From NCBI GenBank assembly GCA_020444065.1, contig JAHLLQ010000007.1, positions 62,001-126,000 on the forward strand: DNA of 64,000 nt, read 5' to 3'. Position numbers and translations under genes: made by a program. The notes beneath the pieces are model-generated. The model saw nothing but the letters and a program-made list of their open reading frames with translations, had not been told where the DNA came from and made no database searches. This document shows, piece by piece, positions 2,555 through 58,820 of this stretch. This DNA is from a bacterium (GTDB lineage: Bacteria > Sumerlaeota > Sumerlaeia > SLMS01 > JAHLLQ01). Within the stretch, counting starts at the first letter, position 1; each line of letters starts with the position of its first letter.

Positions 2555-3020
2555 GGGGGGATGGACCGCGCTTTCAGCGCTTGGTGGGGGCGCGCGGAAA
2601 TCCCAGGGCTTGCGCCCTGGGCTGGTATAGGACAGGGCGTTGCCCCTTTTTTGGGGCAAGATCGAGTGGGAGTGCGCGAGGGTTGCGGGACGGCTCTTGG
2701 GCAGGGATGCCCAAGTCACCTCGAATTGGTCTCCTGCGTACTCGTACTCAGCGGAGCGGTGCTCGTAATCGTTCTCGAATTGTTGGGATGGGAGTTTCGA
2801 GTAGGAGTACGAAGGGGGGCTCTGCGGTAGCTTGAGCATCTTTGCTCAAGCCCAGCGGTGTGTGGATTTCTGCGAGGGTTGCGGGCCGGCTCTTGGGCAG
2901 GGATGCCCAAGTCACCTCGAATTGGTCTCCTGCGTACTCGTACTCAGCGGAGCGGTGCTCGAACTCGTTATCGTCTTTTGGAGGGGTTGCCGGCTGGAAG
3001 CCGGCGGTCCCGGCGGTCCC
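2555..3020. repeat. Dispersed modular palindromic repeat, copies A and B
   Basis: Fills the convergent gap between the receiver gene and the thioesterase gene. 2676-2764 and 2872-2960 are the same 89-nt sequence with one mismatch, spaced 196 nt apart. Modules: a GGGCTTGCGCCCTGGG palindrome (~2607), a TTGGGCAGGGATGCCCAA hairpin (~2697 and ~2893), an ACTCGTACTCAGCGGAG stretch, a CTTGAGCAT..TGCTCAAG hairpin (2831-2850) and a GCCGGCTGGAAGCCGGC palindrome (~2989). The same modules recur near 4583-4745, 30826-31395 and 44473-44560. No credible gene is present; apparent open frames are translations of the repeat. Confidence 0.85.
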
Positions 3021-4582: not shown

Positions 4583-4745
4583 TTGAGGTGACTTGAGCAT
4601 CCCTGCTCAAGCCCCGAGGCTTTGGCCGTATGGTGAGCTTGCCGGCTGGGACGTGGTGGGCAGGTTGGCTTTTGGGCAGGATGCCCAAGTCACCTCGTGG
4701 ACGGTGGCGGATCGATCACGATTACGAGCACGAGCACGAAACAGG
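4583..4745. repeat. Dispersed modular palindromic repeat, copy C
   Basis: Lies in the 492-base divergent gap (4356-4847) between the unknown gene and the globin gene. It contains GAGGTGACTTGAGCAT..TGCTCAAGCCC (4585-4614), a GGGCAGGATGCCCAAGTCACC module (4674-4694) and a trailing ACGAGCACGAGCACGA tract (~4726-4741). The rest of the gap (4356-4582, 4746-4830) holds no gene I can support; promoters for both flanking genes must lie there. Confidence 0.8.
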
Positions 4746-30825: not shown

Positions 30826-31395
30826 GGAGCGGTGGGTCGCGCCTTCAGCGCTCCCTGGGCCTGGACGCTGGGGACCCAGGGCTTGCGCCCTGGGCTGGTA
30901 TGGGGCGGGGCGTTGCCCCTTGAGGGGCGAAGATTGGCGGGTGGGCTCTTGGGCAGGATGCCCAAATCACCTCGAGGGGGCGTACTCGTACTCAGCGGAG
31001 CGGTACTCGTACTCGTACTCGGTTCTTGGGGTTTCGAGTACGAGCAGGAGCACGAGGGGGGCAAAGCGCGGGGGTGAGGTGACTTGAGCATCCTTGCTCA
31101 AGCCCAGTGATGTTGGAGAGCCCGCTGGGGTTGGGGGGGGCGATGGGTCGCGCCTCCCGCCTTCGCAAGGGCTACGGCGGACGAGTCAGGACTCCCTGGG
31201 CTGGTATGGGGTGGGGCGTTGCGCCTTGAGGGGCGATTCGAAGGGCGAGGATTGGCGGGTGGGCTCTTGGGCAGGATGCCCAAGTCACCTCGTGGGGGCG
31301 TACTCGTACTCAGCGGAGCGGTACTCGTACTCGCACTCGGTTTTCGAGATTTCGATTACGCGCACGAGCACGAGCACGTGACGCAAGCGGTCCCA
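30826..31395. repeat. Dispersed modular palindromic repeat, copies D and E
   Basis: Occupies most of the 718-base gap between the subtilase start and the kdsB stop. Copy D holds CAGGGCTTGCGCCCTGGG (~30879), a GGCGTTGCCCC module (~30909), TTGGGCAGGATGCCCAAATC (~30949), GTACTCGTACTCAGCGGAGC (~30982) and a TGACTTGAGCAT..TGCTCAAG hairpin (31083-31102). Copy E (31195-31395) repeats the GGCGTTGCGCC, GGGCAGGATGCCCAAGTCACC and GTACTCGTACTCAGCGGAGC modules and ends in a CGAGCACGAGCACG tract. No protein-coding gene is supported; long open frames are repeat translations. Confidence 0.85.
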
Positions 31396-44472: not shown

Positions 44473-44560
44473 GATTGCGAGGGGTGTTGGATCGGCTCTT
44501 GGGCAGGGATGCCCAAGCCACCTCAAGGGGCTGGCCGGCTGGAAGCCGGCGGTCCCAGGG
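44473..44560. repeat. Dispersed modular palindromic repeat, copy F
   Basis: Short copy in the 301-base divergent gap between the 60-residue protein gene and the SH3-like gene. It contains GCTCTTGGGCAGGGATGCCC (~44495-44514), CAAGCCACCTCAAGG, and a GCCGGCTGGAAGCCGGC palindrome followed by GGTCCCAGGG, the same modules as in copies A/B. Confidence 0.8.
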
Positions 44561-45198: not shown

Positions 45199-46136
45199 GG
45201 TGGAGTGACTTGATTCGTTTCCGTGCGATTGCGCCGGCGATGTTGCTGGTGGGTGTTGCGTTGTGGAGTGCGGCGTGTTCCGGCGAGGAGTTCGGTAGCC
45301 TGGTCGAGGCGAGCTATGTGGCGTACAAGGCGAGCGAAGGCGAGCTGACGCCGGAGGAAGAGGCGCGGGCTCGTCAGTTGGGTCAGGCAGCGGGCTCGGT
45401 GCACCAGGCGGCGCAGGGCATCAATCTGGAGACGGAGCGTTCGTTGGGTGGCGGTCTGGCCGTTCGCACATTCAGTCAGTACGGCAAGCCGCATCCGAGC
45501 GAAGAACTGCAGCGTTACGTGAACCTGGTTGGTCGCGCGGTGGCGCGTCAGGGTGGCCGCGAGGATTTGCCGTCGAGCGCTTACTACTTCGCGGTGATCG
45601 ACAATCCGGATCCGAACGCGTTTGCCGGTCCGGGCGGGTATATTTTTGTGACGTCCGGTGCGCTGGAGCTGATGGAAACCGAGGCGGAACTGGCGGGCGT
45701 TCTGGCGCACGAGGTGGCGCACGTGAACGAGAAGCATCTGCTGAAGATGTATAAGCGCCAGCAGGTTCTGCAGGCGGGTCAGGAGCTGGCCGTTGCGCTG
45801 GAAGAAGACATGGCGCAGTACACGCAGGCGGTGGATTTCTTCTCTACAACGGTGTTCGATCACGGCATCGACAAGGGATTCGAGTACGACGCGGACCTCG
45901 TGGGGACGGAGATCACGGCATTCACCGGTTACGATCCGGCGGGGCTGCGCGATTTCCTGAAGCATCTGCGGGCGACGACGACCAAACAGGGCGGGTGGTT
46001 TTCGACGCATCCGGACACGGGTGCGCGCATCGGGAAGCTGAACGCGATGCTGGCGACGGAGCTGCAGGGCGTCGACGGTGTGCAGCAGCGCGAGCGCTTC
46101 CAAAACACAATGGGACGTACATTGCATAGCCGATGA
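45195..46136 (+). CDS. M48-family metalloprotease lipoprotein
   Basis: 313 residues. Lipoprotein signal (LLVGVALWSAAC), then an M48 zinc-peptidase domain: LAHEVAHVNEKH with H172, E173 and H176, a downstream FEYDADLVG acidic zinc ligand segment (E/D in the third-ligand position), and STHPDTGARIGKLNAML, the usual M48C C-terminal HP motif. E. coli relatives (LoiP, BepA) cut or chaperone misfolded outer-membrane proteins from the periplasm, so envelope quality control is a fair inference. It overlaps both neighbours by ATGA, so its synthesis is tied to the SH3 protein before it and the AsmA-like protein after it. Confidence 0.92.
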   Translation: MRWSDLIRFRAIAPAMLLVGVALWSAACSGEEFGSLVEASYVAYKASEGELTPEEEARARQLGQAAGSVHQAAQGINLETERSLGGGLAVRTFSQYGKPHPSEELQRYVNLVGRAVARQGGREDLPSSAYYFAVIDNPDPNAFAGPGGYIFVTSGALELMETEAELAGVLAHEVAHVNEKHLLKMYKRQQVLQAGQELAVALEEDMAQYTQAVDFFSTTVFDHGIDKGFEYDADLVGTEITAFTGYDPAGLRDFLKHLRATTTKQGGWFSTHPDTGARIGKLNAMLATELQGVDGVQQRERFQNTMGRTLHSR

Positions 46137-49100
46137 CCTCTTCCGAGCAATCGCCGAAACCGCATGTTCCGTCGCTTGAAAAAGAGGGACGGAGTAAGAA
46201 GCCGCGACGATGGTTGCGGCGATTGCTCTTTATTGCGGGTGGGTTGATTCTGTTGCTGCTGATCGTCGTGTTGGTGACTCCGGCGATTTTGACCAGTGGT
46301 TGGGCCGAGCAGAAAGCCTCTGCGACGGCGAGCGAGATCCTTGGTCGACCCGTTACGATCGAGGGAATCGCATTCGGTTGGCGCACGCCGTTGACGTTGG
46401 ATCGCATAGAGATTCCGGCGATTGAGGGCGAAGACGACCGGCCGTTGTTCGACCTGGAGGGCGTAGAGGTTCCGCTGACGCTGACCGGCGTTTTGCGCAT
46501 GCCGCCATATGCTCTCGACGAGATTCGCGTGCATCGTGTGGAAGTGAACGCGGTGCGGCTCGAAGACGGCGAGTGGAACGTTATCAAGATCGCCGACGGC
46601 ATGAAGAAGGAGCCGGAGGCGCCAGAGCCGCCGAAGGAAGAGAAACCGTCGGAAGCGGCGCCGTTGCCGATTTCTTCGCTGAAGATTGCCGTGGATGAAA
46701 TCGATCTGCGGGCGGTGGACTTGACGCGCGATTACGTCGCCGGATGGGAAGGCGGTTCCTTGTCCGTTCTATGGCCGGGCGACGTGGCGCCGGTGACGAT
46801 CGATGTGGATGGTACGCTGCGTTCGGGCGAAGAGACGATGCCGTGGGATGTGCGCGCGAAGATCGAGCACTGGATCGATTCGGACGGCATGTTGACTCCG
46901 ATGACGACGGTTGCGACGACGGCGAGCGACGGGATGGTTCACGCGGGACAGATCGCTGCGGGCGGGTTCTTCCTGCATGCGGACGCGACGGGCGCAGAGC
47001 CGATCGTGGCGCGTATTGTGATTCCGCTCCGGCGATGGGCGGAACTTGCGCAGCCGGGCCTGCCGCCGGACGCATTTGTGCCACGGATGGATGGCGAGCT
47101 GGAGTTGGCGCTGAATGCGCGGCACGCGAAGGACTTCCAGAAGTGGGACGTCGAAGCGAGCGTTGCCACGCATGATGTCGTGGCGGCGGGTGCGCCTCTG
47201 GGGCCGGCGCCGCAGACAATTCCGAACCTGACGGCTTCGCTTTCTGCGGCAATGGACCTGTCGGAACGACGAGTAGATGAATTGAGTGCGACATTCGATT
47301 CGCCTGCGCTTCAGATGTTGGCGGAAGGGGGCGACCTGGCGTTCGACGATCCGGCGCATCCGGGGCGCTTCGAGGCCCACGCGCACGCGGATTTTGAGAA
47401 GCTGTGGATGCTGGGCGCGTCGTTCATCAGTGCAACGAACGATGCCGGGTTGACGGGGACGATGGATTTCACGGCGCGCCTTCTGCCGCCGGGCGACGCG
47501 GAGCATCGCGTGTTCGTTTCGCTGGATGTTTCACCCGGCGCACTGACGACGCTGGCTCCGTTCGCAGAGACGCCGACTGCGTTGCCCTTTCCGCTCGATC
47601 TGTCGCCGTTTGCGACAAAGACGTCGGCCACATTGGCGCTGAATCCTGCAGAGAAGCTCTTCTCCGTCCCGACTTTTGGTGTCGCGGCGCCGTTGTACTA
47701 TGTGGACGGGTCGGCCGAGGCGAATCTTGCCGGCGAGACGCCAGTGTGGAAGACTGCGTTGGCGGCTGGGTTCGATCTGGATGCTCTGAACGACTCGTAC
47801 AACGCGATCCTTGCGCAGCATAATGTGCACGAACTGCAGGGGCGGATCGTCGCGGATGTTTCGGCGAACGGCGCGGCAGATGGTTCGATTTCGACCAAGG
47901 GCTCCGTGACGAGCAGGGACATCGGCGCCGCGATTCCGCGCGAGAACGGTCTGCTGCCGATTCGGCAATCGGAGGTTGTCGCGAATTGGGATCTGACGGC
48001 CGACCCGGCCGCGAAGGCGATTGAGATTCGGAACGCTGCCCTGCGCAGTCCGCTGGCATCGCTGGATGTGAAAGGCAACGCCTCGCCGACGGCGATCGAT
48101 CTGGCGGGCAAATCGAAGACGTCGCTTGGGCCGATCATGGCGCTGGCGCAGCAGTTCAAGGAGTTGCCAATCGACTTGGCGGGTCGACTCGAAATGGACT
48201 TCGACGCCAAGGGTGAGATTGGGCGCGACCTGCAGGCTCATGTGTCGCTGTTTTCCTTTGGTCCCGTGCGCTACACGCAGATGGGAACCGATGTATTCAG
48301 CGAGGATCTGCATTTCGAAACGGGAACGCGGGTACGTTGGAACGATGGCGAACTTGAAAGTGTCGATATCGACGGGCTGCATGCTCTGCTCGGCGATGCG
48401 ATGTCGGCGTCGCTGGATTCGACCGTGAATCTGGGCGATGGAACCGGCGCAACGGCGAGCGGGCATTTTGCCGGTACGATGCCGTTCCTGATAGCGTTTG
48501 TTCCCCCGGAGAAGATGGAATCGATGGAGATGGCGCTGGATGCGACGGGGATGACGACGGCCACGGTGACGATCGATGCGCCGCTGGCGTTGGGCGATGA
48601 TGGTCTCAAGATGGGCGAGCGCTGGGTCGTGAAGGGGAATCTCTCCACCGATGTTCCGGAGATGGAATGGTACAAGGGCGATATGGGCGAGTACCTGGCC
48701 GGTACGCGTGACGATCGCGATTTCACGGTGACGCTGAATCCGAACGATCCGATGGGCTTTGTGTATGAGGACAGTGCTGTGACCGCGACGAGCGAAGTCA
48801 TGGGCCCGATGGATATCCAAATGGGCGAGGTTCGCATCGAAAACTCGACGCGCTTCGAGATGAACAAGCCGATTCTTGTGAACATTCCTGCGAGTCGTAT
48901 TGGTGCGTTTGTTTTCCCGACGGAAACGATGGAGATGCGGCTTCCTCCGACGACGTTTGCCGGTAAGTTGAAGATCGAAATGGAGCGGAGTGACTTCATT
49001 GCGAACGATGTCGTTGCGGTGATCGAAGGCGTTGGAAACGGCGGTGGCTCCGGCAATTTCAACTGGGGCGACTTCTCGTGGAGCATGGATTCCACGGTCG

Positions 49101-50596
49101 ATGTTTCCGATATTCGGAATCTGACACAGTTGGTCCAGTTGGATGAGGAGATGATGGGGCGCTTGCCGGAGCTGCACGGCAAGGCGCAGGCGACGACGAA
49201 GTTGCGGGGCTCCGATCCGCGGCCTCCGTACGATCTGGCAAGGGGCCTGCCCGTGCGCGGCAGTGCGACGCTCGATTGGGGGGAGGTCGCCGTGCGCAGT
49301 GGAGAGGCCTGGTGGGTCGAGGGCATTGCAGGCAATGCCTCGTTCGATGCTTCCGACGATGGGAAGAACGCGGCGCTTGCGTGGAATCTTGGAATTGATG
49401 AAATCGGTGCGGACGCGATCGAGCAAAAACCCGTGCGCGATTTTGCGGTGAACGGAAGTCTGGAACTCGACGATTTCGATGTGCTGCAATTGACTGTGCC
49501 GGAAACAAGCGTCGGGAATTACGAGATGCTCGCCGGCGCGAATTTCCGCGCGGAAGGTCTGAAGCCTTATCTGCTCGAAGGCGCGGGGACAGATATCGAG
49601 TCGTGGTTGCGTGGGCCGAGGTTGCTTGGCGACGCGAAGTTCCACCTGGATCTGGATGGGCTGAACGAGACGCATCCTCTGCTGACCGCCGGTGGCACGA
49701 TTGATTGGAGTGGAAAGCTCTCCAACACGCCGGGGCGTTTGCTGGAATTCAATTCGTTGCTTTCGACGGATTCCGTCGATGTGGCCTTTGCGGATCTGTT
49801 TGCGTTGAATGGACTGAATGGCAGTTGGGATGCGTTGAAGACGTATCGTCTCGACAGTTCCGTACGCATTCCGACAAAGCCAACGGAAGGCAAGTTCACG
49901 GTCGATCGCATTGCGTTCAAAAAGCCGCCAGCCGAGGGCGAGATCTTGGATTCGGTCGTGACGGTGCAGGGATTCGAGCGTGGCCTGCGCATGTCGGCAG
50001 GAATTCGCGACTTCCTCGGCGGACCGGCGACGGCATCGGCTTCTTTGACTGAAGAGGGCAGCGATCCCGTTCTGCGGGCGGAGATGGAATTGACGGGTTT
50101 GCGCGGCGGCAAGCTCTCGCCCTACCTGCGAGACCTGGGTGGGTGTCAGGATGAGATCAGCGGCGTCGCGACGATGACGTGGCGCATTCCGGAATCGAGC
50201 GAAGGCAACGTGCTGGATACGCTTCTTGTGCGGCTGCGTTCGACGCAGATCGGCAAGAAGGCGCTCGCGCGATTGCTGCAGGCGCTGGATGCGAACCAGG
50301 ACGATCCGCGCTTCCAGAATGCCATCACGGCGTTGAACTTCGGTGCGCCGGTTGGCGGGCAGTTTGTGCTTGAGAATTCACTCGTAACAATGGCCGCGCA
50401 ACTTCGATTACCGGTTGGCGTGATTGTTCCACTTCCAATCCTCGACCGCGCGCCACTGGGCGAGATCTTCGCCGTGTACGGCATGCAGCAGCAGGCCGGC
50501 GCGATCAGTCGTGCGCACGATCCGCTGCTGATGTTACTGCGGTCGGATCTGTTTATCGATGCATCACAATCCACAGAGGCAGGAACGCTACCATGA
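46133..50596 (+). CDS. AsmA/YdbH-like intermembrane bridge protein
   Basis: 1487 residues. A basic N-terminus, then one membrane anchor (LLFIAGGLILLLLIVVLVTPAIL, ~residues 31-53), then the AsmA-type opening: SATASEILGRPVTIEGIAFGWRTPLTLDRIEIPAI, and EVNAVRLEDGEWNVIKI. The remaining ~1300 residues are repetitive beta-strand, as expected for a repeating-beta-groove lipid conduit spanning the periplasm. TamB, AsmA and YdbH are the reference proteins. YdbH is favoured by the DUF1318/YdbL-like gene immediately after it. Overlaps both neighbours by ATGA. A Pro/Glu-rich loop (EPEAPEPPKEEKPSEAAP) sits near residue 165. Confidence 0.83.
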   Translation: MTSSEQSPKPHVPSLEKEGRSKKPRRWLRRLLFIAGGLILLLLIVVLVTPAILTSGWAEQKASATASEILGRPVTIEGIAFGWRTPLTLDRIEIPAIEGEDDRPLFDLEGVEVPLTLTGVLRMPPYALDEIRVHRVEVNAVRLEDGEWNVIKIADGMKKEPEAPEPPKEEKPSEAAPLPISSLKIAVDEIDLRAVDLTRDYVAGWEGGSLSVLWPGDVAPVTIDVDGTLRSGEETMPWDVRAKIEHWIDSDGMLTPMTTVATTASDGMVHAGQIAAGGFFLHADATGAEPIVARIVIPLRRWAELAQPGLPPDAFVPRMDGELELALNARHAKDFQKWDVEASVATHDVVAAGAPLGPAPQTIPNLTASLSAAMDLSERRVDELSATFDSPALQMLAEGGDLAFDDPAHPGRFEAHAHADFEKLWMLGASFISATNDAGLTGTMDFTARLLPPGDAEHRVFVSLDVSPGALTTLAPFAETPTALPFPLDLSPFATKTSATLALNPAEKLFSVPTFGVAAPLYYVDGSAEANLAGETPVWKTALAAGFDLDALNDSYNAILAQHNVHELQGRIVADVSANGAADGSISTKGSVTSRDIGAAIPRENGLLPIRQSEVVANWDLTADPAAKAIEIRNAALRSPLASLDVKGNASPTAIDLAGKSKTSLGPIMALAQQFKELPIDLAGRLEMDFDAKGEIGRDLQAHVSLFSFGPVRYTQMGTDVFSEDLHFETGTRVRWNDGELESVDIDGLHALLGDAMSASLDSTVNLGDGTGATASGHFAGTMPFLIAFVPPEKMESMEMALDATGMTTATVTIDAPLALGDDGLKMGERWVVKGNLSTDVPEMEWYKGDMGEYLAGTRDDRDFTVTLNPNDPMGFVYEDSAVTATSEVMGPMDIQMGEVRIENSTRFEMNKPILVNIPASRIGAFVFPTETMEMRLPPTTFAGKLKIEMERSDFIANDVVAVIEGVGNGGGSGNFNWGDFSWSMDSTVDVSDIRNLTQLVQLDEEMMGRLPELHGKAQATTKLRGSDPRPPYDLARGLPVRGSATLDWGEVAVRSGEAWWVEGIAGNASFDASDDGKNAALAWNLGIDEIGADAIEQKPVRDFAVNGSLELDDFDVLQLTVPETSVGNYEMLAGANFRAEGLKPYLLEGAGTDIESWLRGPRLLGDAKFHLDLDGLNETHPLLTAGGTIDWSGKLSNTPGRLLEFNSLLSTDSVDVAFADLFALNGLNGSWDALKTYRLDSSVRIPTKPTEGKFTVDRIAFKKPPAEGEILDSVVTVQGFERGLRMSAGIRDFLGGPATASASLTEEGSDPVLRAEMELTGLRGGKLSPYLRDLGGCQDEISGVATMTWRIPESSEGNVLDTLLVRLRSTQIGKKALARLLQALDANQDDPRFQNAITALNFGAPVGGQFVLENSLVTMAAQLRLPVGVIVPLPILDRAPLGEIFAVYGMQQQAGAISRAHDPLLMLLRSDLFIDASQSTEAGTLP

Positions 50597-51183
50597 GAAC
50601 CCTACCGAAACTCTTGCTTGGAATCGTGATCCTCGGAGCCGTGTCGTTTGCGACGACCGGTTGCGGGGGCAGCCTCTTCAATGTCGACCTGTTCGTGGTC
50701 GGCGAGCAAACGTCGCTGGAGAAACAGGTTCTCGGGACGTACGATTCGTTGGGCGAGAATCTGCTGATCTACAGCAGCGTGCGCGGCGTTTCGGAGGACG
50801 GTTCACTGAAGACGCCGCCGCCATCGACGGAAAGTCAGCAGGCGACGTACATGGCGATGCGTAATCGCGAGTACAACCGCGGCGACATCGAGGGGATCCT
50901 GCGCGAAGGCATTGCGGGCGAAGCGAATGACGGCTTGCTGGCGCTGCGTGATGAAGAAGCGGGGGCGGTCATTGCCGATCTGACGCGCGATGAAGTCGAG
51001 CGCGTCGTGGACGAAGAGAACGCCGATCGGCAGACGATTCTGGATCGCCTGGTGCAGACAACGCCGGGAGTGGATGAGTCGTCACGCGGCGAGGTCGCCT
51101 GGATCTTCGCCGGATTGAATCACGATCTGGCTCCGGACGGTTCGTGGGTGCAGTCCCGCGACGGGGAGTGGGTGAGAAAATGA
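50593..51183 (+). CDS. DUF1318 (YdbL-like) lipoprotein
   Basis: 196 residues. Lipoprotein signal ending in SFATTGC, then FVVGEQTSLEKQVLGTYDSLGENLLIYSSVRGV, a segment typical of DUF1318 lipoproteins. Middle part: NREYNRGDIEGILREGIAGEANDGLLAL. The C-terminus DGSWVQSRDGEWVRK resembles the end of E. coli YdbL. In E. coli YdbL works with YdbH and YnbE in phospholipid transport between the membranes. YdbH-like is the gene before; no YnbE-like small lipoprotein is seen. Overlaps both neighbours by ATGA. Confidence 0.83.
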   Translation: MRTLPKLLLGIVILGAVSFATTGCGGSLFNVDLFVVGEQTSLEKQVLGTYDSLGENLLIYSSVRGVSEDGSLKTPPPSTESQQATYMAMRNREYNRGDIEGILREGIAGEANDGLLALRDEEAGAVIADLTRDEVERVVDEENADRQTILDRLVQTTPGVDESSRGEVAWIFAGLNHDLAPDGSWVQSRDGEWVRK

Positions 51184-54100
51184 AAACGACTCGGAAAACA
51201 CTTCTGGCGATCGGAGCGGCGTTGCTCTCGACGGCGGCCAGTGGGCGCGATCCGGCGCCTTACTTGCGCTTGCTGACATCCGATCCTTCCGCGGACTACT
51301 CGCCGACGGTTTCTCAAGACGGCAAGCACCTCGTGTTTGTTTCAGAGCGCGATGGAGGCCAGGAACTCTACACGACACGGTTGGATGCGGAGTTCCCCGA
51401 TCAACCAACGGCGATTGCGCCCAGCGCGGCGTCGGATTCGCAACCTGCACTGTCGCCCAATGGGAAGTGGCTCGCCTGGACATCGACGCGCGAGGATGCG
51501 TTTGGCGACGTGATGGTGATGGCATTCCCGAATGGCGAGCCACGGGCGCTTTCCGAGCGAGGCATTCGCGACGATTCACCGCAGTGGGTGCAGCGCAGTG
51601 GCAAACTAGCTCTTCGTTTTCGCTCCACGCCATTGAACGGCGAGCCCGAGTGGCATGAAGTCGCCGCGCGGCGCTGGGATGACGTGCGCCCGTCGGAGGC
51701 GCGGATGGAGATGCCAGATTTTCCATACGGCGCGACGATGGCGGCAGAGCCTGTGGATGAAGAGGGGCCGTGGTTGCTTTTTGCAGACGATACAAATGGG
51801 GATGGAGTCTTCGGCGATGGTGATCGCCCCAGCGCGTGGCGATTCGATGCACGCGATGGATCGTGGCAACAATTGACACCTCCGCTGGAGGGATTGGATG
51901 CGCCACGGCTCTCTGATGGGGAACTTGTTTTCGGCGTGAACCTGCGCGGGAATCTGGATGTTGCGTTGGTGACGCAGCCGTTTGCGGTTGCCGGGATTTC
52001 TTCGGCGCGGGCGGGGATGGAGCAGGCGACCGATGCGTGGGGTGCCGATCCGTTCGATCCGTACACGCCGGTTGCGCTTTGCCGGCAAGGAGCTCTGCAC
52101 GAGGCGGGCTCTGAAGTAGCCGGTGAGGCAATCGCGGAGGCGTTGGACGTCTTGCGCGAAGCCAATCGGCCCGAGCAGGGACTGGCGATGCTCGACTGGT
52201 CGTCGGCGAATGGCGTGGTGGCTTCGCCGCTGGATGCGGAGCTACTGTTTCGGCGTATCGTGTTGACGGCGGCTGCGCAGCGACGCGCCGGGGCGCTGCG
52301 TGCTGAAACGCGTGCGGCGCAGGCGAGTGCTTCGCGTGAATTGGAAGAGTTGGCGAAGGCAAATGCGAGCGATGCCGCGTTGCATTCCCACTTGCTGTTG
52401 GAAGCCGCACGGCTGGCGTTGCATGCGGAAGATTCTGCGCGGGCGATTGAGTTGGCCCTAGAAGCAGAGCAGGCGACCGATGCGCCGCATCGTGTGCGCG
52501 CGGAGGCGGCGCTGTTTCGCGCAAAGACGTATGAGTCGTTAAACCTGCCGGACCAGGTGGTGGCGGCTTACGAGATGGTGTTGATGGAATTCAGCGATGT
52601 ATCGGACGTTGTGGAGAAGGCGGCGCTGCAACTGACGGATATCGCGGCAAAGAATCCGCCTGAGGGCGCGTCGGCTTATGCGTCGGTTCGCCGTTCGGCA
52701 GATCTCGTGCCGGATTCACCGACGCTGCAGGCCGCGGCGTTCTATCGTTCGGGACTCTTGTTGGCTGATGCGGGCAATTCCGGTCAGGCAAAGGACGCGT
52801 GGGGCGAGGCGATCGCGATGGAGGAACAGGCTCCACGGCTGGCGGCGCGTTCGTCGTTCGCACTGGCGGAGCTCCTCGCGCGCGAGGGCAAGTACATTGA
52901 GTCGATCGACACGTACGAGTCGGTTGAAGAAAATACGCGTGCGCAGTTCTTCCCGGGCGCTCCGGCGTTTTATGAACAGGCGCGCGAAGGTCTCGTTCGC
53001 GAGTATCTGAACAAGGGCAATTTCGAATTGCGAGTGGGCGATGCGGCGCTTGCGGCGAATACGTTCCGCGAGTTGATCGATCGGCGTCCGGAGCTTGTCG
53101 AGGCGTGGCGGGGTTACCTCGACGCGCGCTATCGTAGCGGGACGTTGGATAAGGCGTTGCTGAAGGAATACAAGACCGCGGCAAAGGCTGAACCGCGCAA
53201 TGCGCTGGTACAGTATCGGTACGGCCTGGCGCTGACGTATTTCCTGCCGATCGAGAAGGAAGCGGTGCGACGTTTGAAAGCGGCGATCGTGCTCGACGGT
53301 TCGGTTCCGTATTATCACCAGACGCTCGGCTTTGTTGATGAGCATTACGGCCGGACGCGCGACGATCGCGGTTTCACTGCGGATGCGCTTGTGGAGTACC
53401 AGCGTGCGTTGGCATTGGTGGATCCGGCGGCGCGGCCGACCGACTATGCGCGGCTGCTGATGAATGTCGGCAATGCGGCGATGGGGTTGGATAATTACTC
53501 GCGCGCGGCGGAATCGTACCGTCGACGCATTCAGACGGGTGAGCCATTCGGCGACGAGCGGACCGAGTTCCTGATGTATCGTTCGTACGGCATGGCGTTG
53601 TTCCGTACGGCGAAGCCTCGGGAAGCGGCAGCGGCATTCCAGTCGGCGATGGATGTGATTCCCGCGATGGTGAACTACGACATGGTCACCAACGAGCGGG
53701 GGTATGAACTGGAGACGGAGTTGCTCGATCGCCAAGCGTTGGCGTTTATGGAAGCCGGCGCACACGACCGGGCGGCTCAGCAGTTTGCGCGCGTTGCGGA
53801 CCGGCACGAGGCGAATTCGTTGTCGCGCGTGCGGGCGTTGCGGAATCGCGGATTTGTGCTGCATCGCCAGGCGCTTGGTGCACTTGGCTTTGAGAGGGAG
53901 CAGTTGCTGCGCGAGGCGGAGGAGGCCATTCGCGGTTCGATGGCACTGGCGACGAGTTCCAAGCTGGTTGATGACCGCGAACCGGCCGGAGGCGGCGGGT
54001 TGTTCTCGATCGAGAAGACCGTTGCAGCGTCGGAAGAAGGCGGAGCGCGGCAGGGGTTCGCGCCGGACGAGGAAGTGCGACTGCTGCAATCGGCGCTGGC

Positions 54101-57100
54101 GAAAATCCTGCAGGATCGAGGCCGGACGGATGAGGCGATCGATGCGTTGCGGGCGGAACTGAACGTGCAGCCGAAGCTGGACGAGGGCAACACGACGTAC
54201 TATCTGACGATTCGGCTCGTGACATTGGATCGGCTTGCTTCGGAGTTGATCCGTGCGGGCCGTCCAGAGGAAGCGGCGGAGGCGTTGATCGAGGCGATCG
54301 ATGTGGCGCGATTCTCTGTCGGCGATGAAGTGCAAACGAATGGCAATGGCCTTTCGGTTGTACTGGCGCGATTGACGGAACTGGCACTGGCGGGCGACGA
54401 CGTTCCGTTTAGCGAGGGCGACCTTGAGGGCACCTGGTTGCTGGAAAACAAAAGTGGGGACGGAGATGTTTTGGCGGCGTTGGATCGAGCGCTGACGGTG
54501 GCATTGGAGCTCCGCACGACTGATGGCGCGGAGCACGTGCTTTCTCCGCCGCTGCAGCGAGTTCGCCTGTTGCTGGCGCGGGCGCTTGTTGCCGAGCGAA
54601 GAGCGGAAACAGCAGATAGTAATGGATTGGATCTGATCCGAGCGGCGACTGAACGGATGCGTTTGGAAGGCTTGGCACGCCGCGTGGCAGAGATGCCAAG
54701 TCAGAGTGCCGAGGGCGGGGAAGTGAAGCGGCTTGGAATTATGGCGCGCGGCCTGTTGATTCGGAGTGCCCTGCAACGTGGAGACAACGACGAAGCGCAG
54801 GCGGAGTTGGACGATGCCTTGGAGTTCGCGACGACATCCGGATTCGCTTCATGGCGTTGGTGGCTGGAGGCGCAGGTCGCGTTGATTGCCGACGACTCGG
54901 ATGCGGCGGAGCGTGCGTTGGTAGAAATGGAAGGCCTGCAGCCCGGGACGATGATCGAGCCGGAGCGCATCCCGTGGGCACTGCTGGAGCACTGCGAAGA
55001 TCTGACGATCCGGCCGCTGGCGGAATCGGGCGACTGGGAAACAGCGTGGGAAGAGACGGCGCGTTGGCGCTGCGTTCGGTTGCGGCTGGCGTTTGACCGC
55101 GCCGTGCCGCAGATTCGCGTGGAGTCGTCGGATGAATTGGCTTGGCTGAAGGAGACAATTCGTTTGCGCGAGCGTTTGCGTGCGGCGATCGAGACATTGC
55201 AGTCGCAGCCGGCCGGTGCGGAGACGAAAGCTGCCCGCGCAGCGATGGAGACAGCCGCCGATGAACTGAGTTTACACATAGATGCGGGCCGAGCGAACGG
55301 CGCAACGGGGCTTGGGTTGATTGCACCGGAGCCGTTGCCGGTTGCCGATGCGGCGATCTTCCTCGAGGAAGGTCTGCCTCTGCCGGCGCCCGCGGCGCTT
55401 GTGCTGTCGACGCGATTCGGGACGGTCGCGTGGACCATGGATGGGATGCATGCTATTGCGTCCGATTCGGATCGGGAAGCGCTGGCCCGGAATGCGGGTG
55501 TGTGGTTTGTGATGGGCGACCCGATCGCGTTTGATGGCGCGACGGTCATTAACATGCCGACTGTCGAGTCGACTTACCTTGCGATTGAGAATCTGTGGCT
55601 GGATCTCGATGCTGAGGCGATTCGTTTCCCGAAGTCGGACAATGCATCGGCAGAGGATCTTCTGCAGACGATGAAGAACGACCTGCAGTTCGCATCGAGC
55701 GTGATGATTGCGGAGCCGCTGCATGTCGAGGGGCCGAACCCGCTGGGATGGCAGATCGGCAATACGCCGATGCCGCTGGGGCGCTTGCTGGAATCGTTGC
55801 CGCCTCCGTCGGACATCCGGGCGGACCTGGATGCAAGTGGGACGATTGATGCAGCGACGCGTCGGGCGCAGGAAGTTGCCCTGGCGGCGGCGTTCTCGTT
55901 TGTCGGTGCGGGCGAAGCGCAGATCGATGGCCATCGTTGGGTGGGGGCGAATTTCTCGCCGAACGACTTGTCGGATTACGCCGAAGCGGAAATCGATTCG
56001 TTGTTCGGGCTGGTTGCCGGGCGTTATCGTCGCGGCGAACTGGCTCGGGCCGTGGTTCCGGCACAGCAGCTTCTGCAGTTGCTGCGCGTGATGAATAAAC
56101 CGACCGGACAAGTTATGCAGGCGGGATTCATGCTGGCGCAGATTCAGGGCGATCTGGGTCGTGATGTGGAGGCCGCGCGCACAGCGGAGGAGCTTGTCGG
56201 CATCGCGCGAGAAGCAGATAATGCCGAGTTCCTGATCGAGACATTGAAGTCCTTTGGCAACTACGCGAATTCCGCGCGGCGGTTCGACGATTCCCATGCG
56301 GCCTACGCGGAAGCTGCGGATCTGCAGGGCGCGGCGGGGAACGTAGCGGAGCAGTTGAAGCTGGTCGCTTCGTCGGGCGTTGCATTGGAGAATGGCGGCC
56401 GCTATCCGGAAGCGCTGGAGGCGTTCCACCGTGCCCTGGAATTGGCGGAATCGCAGAACGATGCGGCGCTTCAAATTGCACAGTGGCAGCGCATCGGGCG
56501 GATCTACTTGCTGCGCCAGAATCGTTACGAGGAAGCGGGCGATGCGTTTGCGCAGGCGCTGGAGATTGCGCGCGAGTCTGGCGATGTGGAGTCGGAAATC
56601 GCGGCGACGCTTGATCTGGCGCGCGTCGATGAGCGGCTTGCGCGTTACGATTCGGCGGTTGAGCGAGCGGAAGCGATGGAGCAGCGCGCGCTGGAGTTGG
56701 ATTTGCCGTTGCAGGAAACGGACGCGATTCTGCTGCGCGCGTTTGTTGAATGGGCGCGGGCTTCGTATCTCGATGCGTTCCGTGCTGAGCGCCAGGGGTT
56801 GGAACTGGCGCGTCAACTGAACGATCGACCGTTCCAGATTATTGCACACAACACGGCAGGGCTGACGCATTGGTCGCTGAACGATACAAGGCAGGCGATC
56901 ACCGAGTTTGAGAATGCGCTGGATCTTGCGGACCAGGGCCTGTTCCGCAGCGAGGTCGCGAGCAGTCACAACAACCTTGGACTCGTGAAGCGTTCGATGG
57001 AGCAGTTCGACGAAGCGCTGGAGGACTTCAGGGCTGCGCTGAAGATCGATCGCGAAGAAGGGAATCGTTGGGGCATTGCGTACGCTCAGAAGAACATTGG

Positions 57101-58820
57101 CATCACGCACATTCAAAGTGGGCAGCCGGACAAAGCGATCTCTCCTTTGGGAGAGGCGATTTCGTTGTCCGAGGAGATCGGCGATCGGACGAACAACACG
57201 AAATCACTCGTCGCGATGGGCGACGCGCATCGTGATTTGAACGAAAACATTAAGGCGCGCGTGGCCTACACGACGGCGCTCGATCAGGCGCGGGACATTC
57301 CGCTGCCGGAAATGGAATGGCGAGCGCTCTATGGGCTGGCCGTCCTGGATCGGCGTGCGGGGAATCTGCAGTCGACGCGGGAGAACCTGGCGGCGGCGAT
57401 CAGTGTCGTCGAGGGACTGCGCGCGCGGATCAAGGTGGAGGAGTTCCAGGACGGGTTCCTCCTCGACAAGCAGCAATTGTACGACGAGATGATCGCGCTT
57501 CTGCTCGATCAGGGCGAAGTGCGCGAGGCGTTCAATTACTCTGAACGTTCACGCGGGCGTAACTTCATCGATCTGCTGGGCAACCGACGGATCGACTTTG
57601 CGTCGGCCGAGGATCGCGATGCGATGCAACGCGATCGTCGCCTCCGCCTGCAGGTCGAATCGCTGCAGCGGCGGCTCTCTTCTGCGCCGGAGGACCAGCG
57701 GGATGAGCTGCGTGCGGAACTCGATGAAGCGAAGCAGGAGTATTCGAATTTCCTTGTGGAGATTCGCGCATCGAATCCGCAGCTCTCGACATTCGTCGAG
57801 GTGCAGCCGGTGGATGTGGCCGAGATTCAGTCGCTACTGGATCCAGACACGCGGCTGGTTGTCTATCACGTGTTGCCGGAGGAGTTGGTTGCGTGGGTGA
57901 TCGGTCCGGCGAGTTTCAACGTGGTTCGCACGCCGGTGTCACGGGACGAGTTGGCCGTGCGAATCGAGGGGTTGCGGGATCGGCTGCAGGAGTTCGCGCC
58001 GGTCGACGGGGAGTTGGCGACGTTGTCGGCGTGGTTGATGACTCCGATTGCCGGCTTGATCGAACCGGCAGCGCGGGTTGGTATCGTGCCACATCGTGAG
58101 TTGCATCTGCTGCCGTTCGCGGCCATCCGACTGGACGGTACACCTTTGATCGAACACGTTTCGTTGTTCCATGCGCCGAGTGCGAGTGTGTTACGTTACA
58201 CGTTTGGACGACGCGGACAGATCGCCGGGAACTTGCGGGTATTGGCCGTGGGGAATCCACGGTTCGAGCGTGCGGAGATGAACCTGCCGTTTGCGGAGAA
58301 GGAAGTGGAGCGCATTTCTTGGACGTTCCCCGATGCAGAGGTTGTGAAGGGCGAGGAGGCGACCGAGTCGTGGGTTGTGGATCACATCGGAGATTACGGG
58401 ATTATTCACCTCGCAACGCACGGCCAGTACGATCCGAAGCTGCCATTGCTTTCCGGAATTCAATTGGCAACGGACCAGCATACGGACGGAGAGCTTACAG
58501 CTCGCGAGGTGTTTGGGCTCAGTCTTCGTGCAGACCTCGTGGCGTTATCTGCCTGCCAGACAGGCCTTGGTCGGATCAGCAGCGGCGACGAAGTTGTGGG
58601 TTTGAATCGCGCGTTTGTGTATGCGGGAACGCGGCAGATTCTCTCGAGTCTTTGGCGGGTGGACGATGTGTCCACGGCAGTGATGGTGAAGCACTTCTAC
58701 AGAAATGTACGAACAATGAATCGTGCGGAAGCACTTAGGAACGCGCAGTTGGAAGTGCGAACTCGTTATCCTCATCCTGCTCATTGGTCAGGGCTGTTTC
58801 TGACCGGCGATTGGCAGTAG
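51180..58820 (+). CDS. Giant exported propeller-TPR-CHAT peptidase
   Basis: 2546 residues. ATG at 51180 overlaps the previous stop (ATGA) and starts a signal peptide (MKTTRKTLLAIGAALLSTAASG). Residues ~25-300 are a TolB/PD40-like propeller (YSPTVSQDGKHLVFVSERDGGQELY; QPALSPNGKWLAWTSTREDAF). Long TPR arrays follow at ~330-1330 and ~1650-2110 (HNNLGLVKRSMEQFDEALEDFRAALKI; FNYSERSRGRNFIDLLG). The C-terminal ~300 residues are a CHAT (caspase-like clan CD) protease with H2414 in HLATHG and C2459 in LSACQTG, and the RQILSSLWRVDD motif. A middle segment (~1390-1600) is a second, degenerate CHAT-like region lacking the dyad. Likely periplasmic or surface protease; target unknown. Confidence 0.92.
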   Translation: MKTTRKTLLAIGAALLSTAASGRDPAPYLRLLTSDPSADYSPTVSQDGKHLVFVSERDGGQELYTTRLDAEFPDQPTAIAPSAASDSQPALSPNGKWLAWTSTREDAFGDVMVMAFPNGEPRALSERGIRDDSPQWVQRSGKLALRFRSTPLNGEPEWHEVAARRWDDVRPSEARMEMPDFPYGATMAAEPVDEEGPWLLFADDTNGDGVFGDGDRPSAWRFDARDGSWQQLTPPLEGLDAPRLSDGELVFGVNLRGNLDVALVTQPFAVAGISSARAGMEQATDAWGADPFDPYTPVALCRQGALHEAGSEVAGEAIAEALDVLREANRPEQGLAMLDWSSANGVVASPLDAELLFRRIVLTAAAQRRAGALRAETRAAQASASRELEELAKANASDAALHSHLLLEAARLALHAEDSARAIELALEAEQATDAPHRVRAEAALFRAKTYESLNLPDQVVAAYEMVLMEFSDVSDVVEKAALQLTDIAAKNPPEGASAYASVRRSADLVPDSPTLQAAAFYRSGLLLADAGNSGQAKDAWGEAIAMEEQAPRLAARSSFALAELLAREGKYIESIDTYESVEENTRAQFFPGAPAFYEQAREGLVREYLNKGNFELRVGDAALAANTFRELIDRRPELVEAWRGYLDARYRSGTLDKALLKEYKTAAKAEPRNALVQYRYGLALTYFLPIEKEAVRRLKAAIVLDGSVPYYHQTLGFVDEHYGRTRDDRGFTADALVEYQRALALVDPAARPTDYARLLMNVGNAAMGLDNYSRAAESYRRRIQTGEPFGDERTEFLMYRSYGMALFRTAKPREAAAAFQSAMDVIPAMVNYDMVTNERGYELETELLDRQALAFMEAGAHDRAAQQFARVADRHEANSLSRVRALRNRGFVLHRQALGALGFEREQLLREAEEAIRGSMALATSSKLVDDREPAGGGGLFSIEKTVAASEEGGARQGFAPDEEVRLLQSALAKILQDRGRTDEAIDALRAELNVQPKLDEGNTTYYLTIRLVTLDRLASELIRAGRPEEAAEALIEAIDVARFSVGDEVQTNGNGLSVVLARLTELALAGDDVPFSEGDLEGTWLLENKSGDGDVLAALDRALTVALELRTTDGAEHVLSPPLQRVRLLLARALVAERRAETADSNGLDLIRAATERMRLEGLARRVAEMPSQSAEGGEVKRLGIMARGLLIRSALQRGDNDEAQAELDDALEFATTSGFASWRWWLEAQVALIADDSDAAERALVEMEGLQPGTMIEPERIPWALLEHCEDLTIRPLAESGDWETAWEETARWRCVRLRLAFDRAVPQIRVESSDELAWLKETIRLRERLRAAIETLQSQPAGAETKAARAAMETAADELSLHIDAGRANGATGLGLIAPEPLPVADAAIFLEEGLPLPAPAALVLSTRFGTVAWTMDGMHAIASDSDREALARNAGVWFVMGDPIAFDGATVINMPTVESTYLAIENLWLDLDAEAIRFPKSDNASAEDLLQTMKNDLQFASSVMIAEPLHVEGPNPLGWQIGNTPMPLGRLLESLPPPSDIRADLDASGTIDAATRRAQEVALAAAFSFVGAGEAQIDGHRWVGANFSPNDLSDYAEAEIDSLFGLVAGRYRRGELARAVVPAQQLLQLLRVMNKPTGQVMQAGFMLAQIQGDLGRDVEAARTAEELVGIAREADNAEFLIETLKSFGNYANSARRFDDSHAAYAEAADLQGAAGNVAEQLKLVASSGVALENGGRYPEALEAFHRALELAESQNDAALQIAQWQRIGRIYLLRQNRYEEAGDAFAQALEIARESGDVESEIAATLDLARVDERLARYDSAVERAEAMEQRALELDLPLQETDAILLRAFVEWARASYLDAFRAERQGLELARQLNDRPFQIIAHNTAGLTHWSLNDTRQAITEFENALDLADQGLFRSEVASSHNNLGLVKRSMEQFDEALEDFRAALKIDREEGNRWGIAYAQKNIGITHIQSGQPDKAISPLGEAISLSEEIGDRTNNTKSLVAMGDAHRDLNENIKARVAYTTALDQARDIPLPEMEWRALYGLAVLDRRAGNLQSTRENLAAAISVVEGLRARIKVEEFQDGFLLDKQQLYDEMIALLLDQGEVREAFNYSERSRGRNFIDLLGNRRIDFASAEDRDAMQRDRRLRLQVESLQRRLSSAPEDQRDELRAELDEAKQEYSNFLVEIRASNPQLSTFVEVQPVDVAEIQSLLDPDTRLVVYHVLPEELVAWVIGPASFNVVRTPVSRDELAVRIEGLRDRLQEFAPVDGELATLSAWLMTPIAGLIEPAARVGIVPHRELHLLPFAAIRLDGTPLIEHVSLFHAPSASVLRYTFGRRGQIAGNLRVLAVGNPRFERAEMNLPFAEKEVERISWTFPDAEVVKGEEATESWVVDHIGDYGIIHLATHGQYDPKLPLLSGIQLATDQHTDGELTAREVFGLSLRADLVALSACQTGLGRISSGDEVVGLNRAFVYAGTRQILSSLWRVDDVSTAVMVKHFYRNVRTMNRAEALRNAQLEVRTRYPHPAHWSGLFLTGDWQ

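Follow-up and report, generated by a model that had tools for sequence, protein, structure and literature searches.

What are the palindromic repeats that recur between the genes of this bacterial DNA, and why do they keep one orientation over whole stretches of the chromosome? The window, that is the entire stretch of 64,000 nucleotides analyzed here, corresponds to C7:62001-126000 of a 5.2-Mb genome in 14 contigs. A first-pass annotation had described five hairpin-forming modules recurring in varying order in four gaps. All five quoted sequences are present, and the gaps lie at 2555-3020, 4583-4740, 30838-31378 and 44498-44554, but the order of the modules is near-constant (A-B-B2-C-D-D'-E ... 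F, with modules dropped) rather than varying. Moreover, two of the five, 'TTGGGCAGGATGCCCAAG' and 'CTTGAGCAT..TGCTCAAG', are not distinct and represent the same element inverted, with a compensated change in the stem: "TTGGGCA" and "CTTGAGCA" mark the two orientations of a single palindrome. The "ACTCGTACTCAGCGGAG" module has hexamer arms on either side of a d(GCGNAGC) core. The features of the window are the following (those marked "pattern" were assigned by pattern matching).

2564..2659, + strand: A-B-B2 element, Acido-Lenti-1-like, from its RF01687 match, its alignment to RAYT-flanking elements and a DNA fold z of -3.05
2564-2580, + strand: hairpin A, part of A-B-B2
2602-2621, + strand: hairpin B CCCAGGGCTTGCGCCCTGGG with tail CTGGTAT, part of A-B-B2
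2640-2659, + strand: hairpin B2, part of A-B-B2
2696..2722, - strand: C module, palindrome CTTGGGCAGGGATGCCCAAG with foot TCACCTC; the - strand reads GAGGTGA-hairpin
2738..2765, + strand: D module, GTACTC hexamers around the mini-hairpin GCGGAGC (2751-2757); pattern
2797..2812, + strand: D' arm, inverted hexamers TCGAGTAGGAGTACGA
2825..2851, + strand: E module, C's family in the other orientation, foot ...GGTAG then CTTGAGCATCTTTGCTCAAG
2892..2918, - strand: C module, second copy; pattern
2934..2960, + strand: D module, second copy; pattern
2989..3009, + strand: F module, GCCGGCTGGAAGCCGGC then GGTC; pattern
4585..4696, + strand: REPIN unit of outer length 112, made of E (4585-4611) and C (4672-4696), feet pointing outward; DNA fold z -4.29
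4720..4737, + strand: D' hexamer arm ACGAGCACGAGCACG; pattern
30838..30920, + strand: A-B-B2 element, of which 30875-30920 scores above the RF01687 gathering score
30948..30973, - strand: C module; pattern
30982..31056, + strand: D module with inverted D' arm; pattern, fold of 30960-31105 z -3.16
31076..31102, + strand: E module, foot GAGGTGA; pattern
31266..31292, - strand: C module; pattern
31300..31378, + strand: D module with inverted D' arm; pattern
44498..44554, + strand: C (44498-44524, - strand) then F (44534-44554); pattern

The modules are not confined to the window; they occur genome-wide, and one core is found across phyla. The pattern TTGGGCAN{1,5}TGCCCAA has 28 matches in the genome versus 0 for the reversed control, GAGGTGACTTGRSCATC (C foot and arm, at most 1 mismatch) has 78 versus 0, and CTCGTACTCAGCGNAGCGG (D pattern, at most 2 mismatches) has 45 versus 0; the patterns were made by hand, and those termed 'hex' and 'B2' are not independent of D and B. 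The modules are far above chance and form several REP-like families, not one. The C and D counts cover the whole genome, contigs besides C3, C7 and C10 having otherwise been sampled in part, and 9 of the 78 C matches and 11 of the 45 D matches (five of them at C4:24.7-25.4k) lie outside these three contigs. The earlier statement that the modules are strictly intergenic holds approximately: of the 47 composites on C3, C7 and C10, 41 either lie clear of genes or overlap one by at most 60 nt, according to home-made gene calls. A single transposon as the source of the composite was rejected, the modules being freely omitted and D, B and C differing in their hosts. Tandem amplification is present among the composites; at C7:246118-246921, a D/C composite of ~320 bp is repeated three times head-to-tail in nearly identical copies. 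The composite was not found by BLAST in same-family genomes. Further repeats, modules G and H (CGCCTTCGC..CGGCGGACAAG and GGTCACGTACTNNAGTACGCTCCC), were noted on several contigs with the polarity common to the other modules, and at 46133-58820 the window also contains two ORFs of great length (1487 aa and 2558 aa).

Read from its foot, the C/E palindrome is GAGGTGA-CTTGxxCA-TCCT-TGxxCAAG. Selection on the foot and the 5' arm alone gave 76 copies, and 66 of them have a 3' arm that pairs without mismatch, distributed over four stem classes (GAGCA 26, GGGCA 26, GGCCA 10, GGACA 4), whereas the 40-nt flanks of the copies share 28-31% identity in ungapped comparison, approximately the chance level; therefore, it is the hairpin itself that has been kept. 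The feet of 85 C hairpins are GTGA (62), GTGG (13), GTAA (3) and seven others found once each, including one GTAG, so that the canonical REP foot GT[AG]G is in the minority (14 of 85). As expected of REPINs, which are inverted pairs of defined length, 13 of 24 neighbor pairs with feet outward have outer lengths of 108-136, and C/E pairs thus form units of ~120 bp. No transposase adjoining C or F was found: no C module pattern matches near two Y1 genes on C3, and in the flanks inspected visually at four own Y1 loci, neither the C foot nor its hairpin appeared. The cognate RAYT of C/E may have been lost or may go unrecognized.

In the D family, 31 own-genome copies of the core CTCAGCGNAGCGG have G (18), A (10) or C (3) at position N, and its eight neighbors are 97-100% conserved. 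GCGNAGC is described as a GNA-loop DNA mini-hairpin of extraordinary stability (PMC4686876), and the D core, variable at N and constant elsewhere, conforms to it at the level of sequence. At least 120 stretches from public genomes contain the exact core; among the matches listed, the hosts are mainly Pirellulaceae and other Planctomycetota, together with Desulfobacteraceae and Sumerlaeota; the 80 listed public loci were picked by a pattern that fixes the neighbors, and only their N counts are informative. A detectable Y1 gene is present in 0 of these 80 cross-phylum loci (up to 8 kb each, several query frames being incorrect), which leaves mobilization of D by a neighboring Y1 gene unsupported, and conversely D lies near a Y1 gene in only 1 of 34 Y1 loci (L033). 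The ACTCGTACTC part had been taken for an unstable short tandem tract. This reading, and with it instability of a hexamer tandem repeat, is contradicted by the unit counts (exactly two hexamer units precede the hairpin in 25 of 42 matches, and one to three follow it in 33 of 42) and by Tandem Repeats Finder, which reports no array there. In genome G019 (loci L116-L132), D was noted within a unit of ~190 bp with terminal inverted repeats CTTGCTTTGTTGAAAA, and C4:24734-25415 carries five tandem D cores in steps of ~165 bp outside the skewed stretches. D and F look like orphan families of the same general kind as REPs, by analogy.

Analysis of the distribution of the modules along the genome reveals a relation with GC skew. 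The skew profile itself is unusual: judging from C3:400-800k and the sampled portions of other contigs, it is near zero across most of the genome and strong in some stretches only; the G+C content of C3:60001-80000 is 0.465 versus 0.60 for the genome. In 117 stretches of ~20 kb binned by skew alone, module density per 20 kb is 7-10 at |GC skew|>=0.08 versus 0.5-1.2 at <0.06. Orientation-informative matches, non-independent parts included, number 146 + and 10 - at |skew|>=0.08, and 33 + and 32 - below 0.06. With composites counted once and 'hex' and 'B2' omitted, 36 of 36 in the skewed stretches are on the + strand (18 of 18 on C7 alone), in 'domain' intervals that, as for the third-codon skew below, were drawn after viewing skew and repeats. 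In other genomes, the orientation of D relative to local skew is a weak trend (58 of 86, P 0.0016, the copies not being independent). The polarity does not derive from gene direction, an origin ruled out by the 44% of C7 genes on the + strand and by the third-codon skew, which in the skewed stretches has the same + strand sign for both gene strands (0.334, 0.184); at C3:400-800k it is near zero on average (0.042, -0.105). The contexts of the 41 intergenic composites are -- (13), +- (13), -+ (12) and ++ (3). Inversions as the sole cause of the zero skew were rejected on the replication part of the skew at C3:400-800k (-0.03, SD 0.11, lag-1 correlation 0.23): judging from these per-gene values, no block mosaic is obvious, and very old inversions could still underlie the zero skew.

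On C7, the skew changes sign at ~23 kb (cumulative minimum at C7:23376). ParB is encoded beside this switch (25.0-26.0k), and two perfect parS sites (C7 26759 and 26795) are the only parS-like sites in the 2.35 Mb examined; the dnaA match is on contig C4, not C7. The parAB/parS skew switch is probably the replication origin region. Taking it as the origin, the + strand to its right is leading-strand in sense, and the lagging-strand template there is the parental + strand, on which the GCGNAGC hairpin lies. The same signature of skew and polarity is found on C10 and in parts of C3, suggesting that C3 and C10 may also lie near the origin. As the skew sign is equal on all three repeat-rich contigs, the second replichore is not directly seen.

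One way to understand such a polarity is that the elements are selected as oriented sites in the origin domain, for gyrase, nucleoid proteins or fork pausing, so that position and direction are themselves functional. Intact hairpins amid random flanks, the confinement to skewed stretches with 36/36 polarity and the binding of gyrase, IHF and Pol I by REPs (PMC6006769) all agree with this idea, but the irregular spacing, the free loss of modules and the occurrence in all gene contexts do not, nor do the absence of the composite from same-family genomes and the tandem amplification, all of which resemble mobile DNA; we consider it unlikely. It is quite unlikely that the polarity was instead imposed after random insertion, by loss of, or selection against, copies with the hairpin strand on the leading-strand template. 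This would give the same polarity simultaneously in every family, also where no transposase is known, but it does not alone account for the low density elsewhere, and hairpins on the lagging-strand template are generally held to be the more deletion-prone, which counts against it.

When the A-B-B2 elements are compared with the covariance model of the Rfam family Acido-Lenti-1 (RF01687), the copy at 30875-30920 obtains 41.1 bits (E 6.8e-6) and passes the gathering score of 37, and the one at 2602-2647 obtains 33.2 bits (E 3.6e-5), below that score. By these matches A-B-B2 is Acido-Lenti-1, of which this genome contains 37 matches, intergenic by approximate gene calls. In the skewed stretches the A-B-B2 copies are single and all same-oriented. 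The first-pass annotation saw no transposase nearby, which is correct for contig C7, where no Y1_Tnp match is present; elsewhere in the genome, a profile search recovered four Y1_Tnp genes above cut-off, and one of them, a REP-type tyrosine transposase (RAYT) gene at C3:432128, has A-B-B2-homologous elements on both sides. Its product contains the HUH motif DHVHL and the tyrosine motif YIDNQEEHH, and its region has seven RF01687 matches at E<=0.01. Seventeen B elements align with three elements flanking this gene, most of them end to end, hairpin A and the CTGGTATG tail included. The A-B-B2 copies adjoining the RAYT occur in both orientations. On the - strand, the foot of A-B-B2 is CATACCAG, not GT[AG]G, and B carries CCAG; the Rfam consensus of RF01687 gives ...TTAG at the foot. 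Two further own Y1 genes, at C3:664520 and C2:632024, have, by eye only, look-alike flanks in which a CCxGGG palindrome stands between two small hairpins.

The same association was found in other genomes. Among 20 Y1 loci scanned against 4227 Rfam families at E<=0.01, RF01687 alone matched (16 matches in 6 loci), whereas 67 kb of control loci gave 0 RF01687 matches and a tRNA as the sole Rfam match. A strict signature, perfect palindrome plus CTRRTAY, occurs in 4 of 34 Y1 loci versus 12 of 410 own-genome control pieces, and the four signature-bearing genes form one clade (84/84, and 99/97 for three of them; 0/500 shuffles) in a tree of the 21 of 34 sequences with clear HUH-Y motifs. Across 12 genomes, at least 8 of 48 strong Y1 genes have RF01687 within 1 kb, where 1.14 are expected (P 2.6e-5), and at least 35 copies lie within 1 kb of those 8, both tallies having been read by hand and the expectation alone computed; for the other 40 of 48, no copy lies nearby among the matches listed. 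Besides this genome, Y1-adjacent RF01687 was found in G001, G012, Ca. Laterigemmans, Roseimaritima and a Pirellulaceae MAG, the co-localization being seen in two phyla, Sumerlaeota and Planctomycetota. Gaps in RF01687 clusters, searched subsequently, held Y1 genes in Ca. Laterigemmans (C9:28428) and Roseimaritima (C130:101810). Copies are dispersed and reach 120 per genome. A hand count in Ca. Laterigemmans baculatus (G061) gave 13 inverted, REPIN-like Acido-Lenti-1 pairs with outer spans of about 165-258 bp.

Because A-B-B2 homologues and RF01687 copies adjoin RAYT genes, Acido-Lenti-1 in these genomes is best read, from such neighborhoods, as a mobile DNA element. Rfam types RF01687 as 'Gene; sRNA', and Table 1 of Weinberg et al. 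2010 (PMC2864571) rates Acido-Lenti-1 as 'probably' an RNA and probably not cis-regulatory. That it and the other modules are structured RNAs, either sRNAs or 3' UTR elements with a post-transcriptional role, would also be compatible with the compensated stems, but appears improbable in view of the up to 120 dispersed copies per genome, their clustering around Y1 transposase genes, the inverted pairs in Ca. Laterigemmans, an orientation not tied to gene direction and a D core that fits the DNA-specific GNA mini-hairpin. Intrinsic terminators or other transcription-linked palindromes, suggested by GC-rich hairpins in intergenic gaps, are scarcely credible, and transcription terminators as such are ruled out, since the hairpins have no T-run 3' of them, occur in all gene contexts (12 of the 41 intergenic composites between divergent genes, only 3 between ++ genes) and keep a uniform orientation whatever the gene strand.

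We consider it reasonably probable, with moderate confidence, that the composites are what remains of single-strand transposition of the RAYT type, acting on the template of the lagging strand. They would comprise several REP-like families of miniature, gene-less palindromes whose copies are nested and mostly ancient, A-B-B2 being or having been mobilized by a RAYT clade of Y1 HUH enzymes. Because such enzymes use single-stranded DNA, which at the fork is mainly the template of the lagging strand, the elements would have entered or been retained in a single orientation relative to fork movement, with the d(GCGNAGC)-forming + strand as the lagging-strand template right of the apparent origin, and would have accumulated where strand asymmetry is strongest. 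RAYT mobilization predicts one fork-relative orientation because IS200/IS605 enzymes work on the lagging-strand template (PMC6006769). We thus infer past mobilization of the elements and lagging-strand targeting as the cause of their polarity. The association with a RAYT is observed for A-B-B2 only, and by analogy C/E, D and F may have been mobilized in the same manner. The least explained point is the confinement of the repeats; a greater exposure of single-stranded DNA in the skewed stretches would account for it and for the skew, although positional selection or elimination in other regions may be responsible instead.

Comparison with known systems supports the earlier assignment to REP/BIME-type composites in kind. 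Like the REPIN/RAYT systems of SBW25 (GI-GIII) and the BIMEs of E. coli, the elements are short intergenic palindromes with a conserved 5' foot and many copies, include inverted pairs of defined length and have a RAYT gene bordered on both sides by elements of its own family. On the other hand, the foot is mostly GTGA (C/E) or CCAG (B) instead of GT[AG]G, several families are nested in near-constant order, and whereas doublets in Pseudomonas fluorescens SBW25 are reported as randomly distributed in extragenic space (PMC3116915), the repeats are here confined to skewed stretches with uniform polarity. Membership in REP/REPIN is thus partial, since most feet depart from the canonical GT[AG]G and no cognate transposase was found for C/E, D and F. 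The GTAG- and CGTC-tagged REPs of Di Nocera et al. 2013 (PMC3733652) are likewise small tagged palindromes in inverted dimers, with other tags; heterodimers are common, some are without a dedicated transposase, and in the accessible part of that article an element such as D, with hexamer arms and GCGNAGC, is not met. The IS200/IS605 family (IS608, ISDra2) resembles our elements in the orientation expected relative to the fork and in the use of single-stranded DNA hairpins as substrates, and differs in that the elements here have no internal transposase gene; the orientation observed here, 18 of 18 on the + strand of C7 right of the skew switch, concerns one replichore. RF01687, described from Acidobacteria and Lentisphaerae (PMC2864571), agrees with the present element in that B-B2 exceeds the gathering score and both hairpins and the tail correspond; it is an sRNA in Rfam versus a dispersed RAYT-linked DNA element here, in Sumerlaeota and Planctomycetota. 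In the literature covered, outside of which most subscription journals fall, no paper was found linking Acido-Lenti-1 to RAYT or REP, and no report of a replication polarity of REP/REPIN like the present one. Three points, of which no description was recognized in that literature, appear to be new: that Acido-Lenti-1 is one and the same as a RAYT-linked element, that D has a GNA mini-hairpin as its core, and that the polarity is near-absolute and regional.

The identification of Acido-Lenti-1 as such an element would shift a curated RNA family to mobile DNA, together with a testable transposase clade, and D contributes palindromic elements, present in several phyla, whose core is an ultra-stable DNA mini-hairpin already known. 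This natural genome, with its almost absolute, regional REP polarity, would make the proposed link between RAYT activity and single-stranded DNA of the lagging strand directly testable. A wider generalization can be offered tentatively, at somewhat less than even confidence: unrelated REP-like families, Acido-Lenti-1 included, would accumulate only where the lagging-strand template is unusually exposed, in a domain close to the origin that is also extremely skewed, and always with the stablest single-stranded DNA hairpin on that template. If this is true, RF01687 would be a mobile DNA element and no RNA gene, and the polarity and density of the repeats would preserve, as a fossil record, how far each part of the chromosome has exposed single-stranded DNA.
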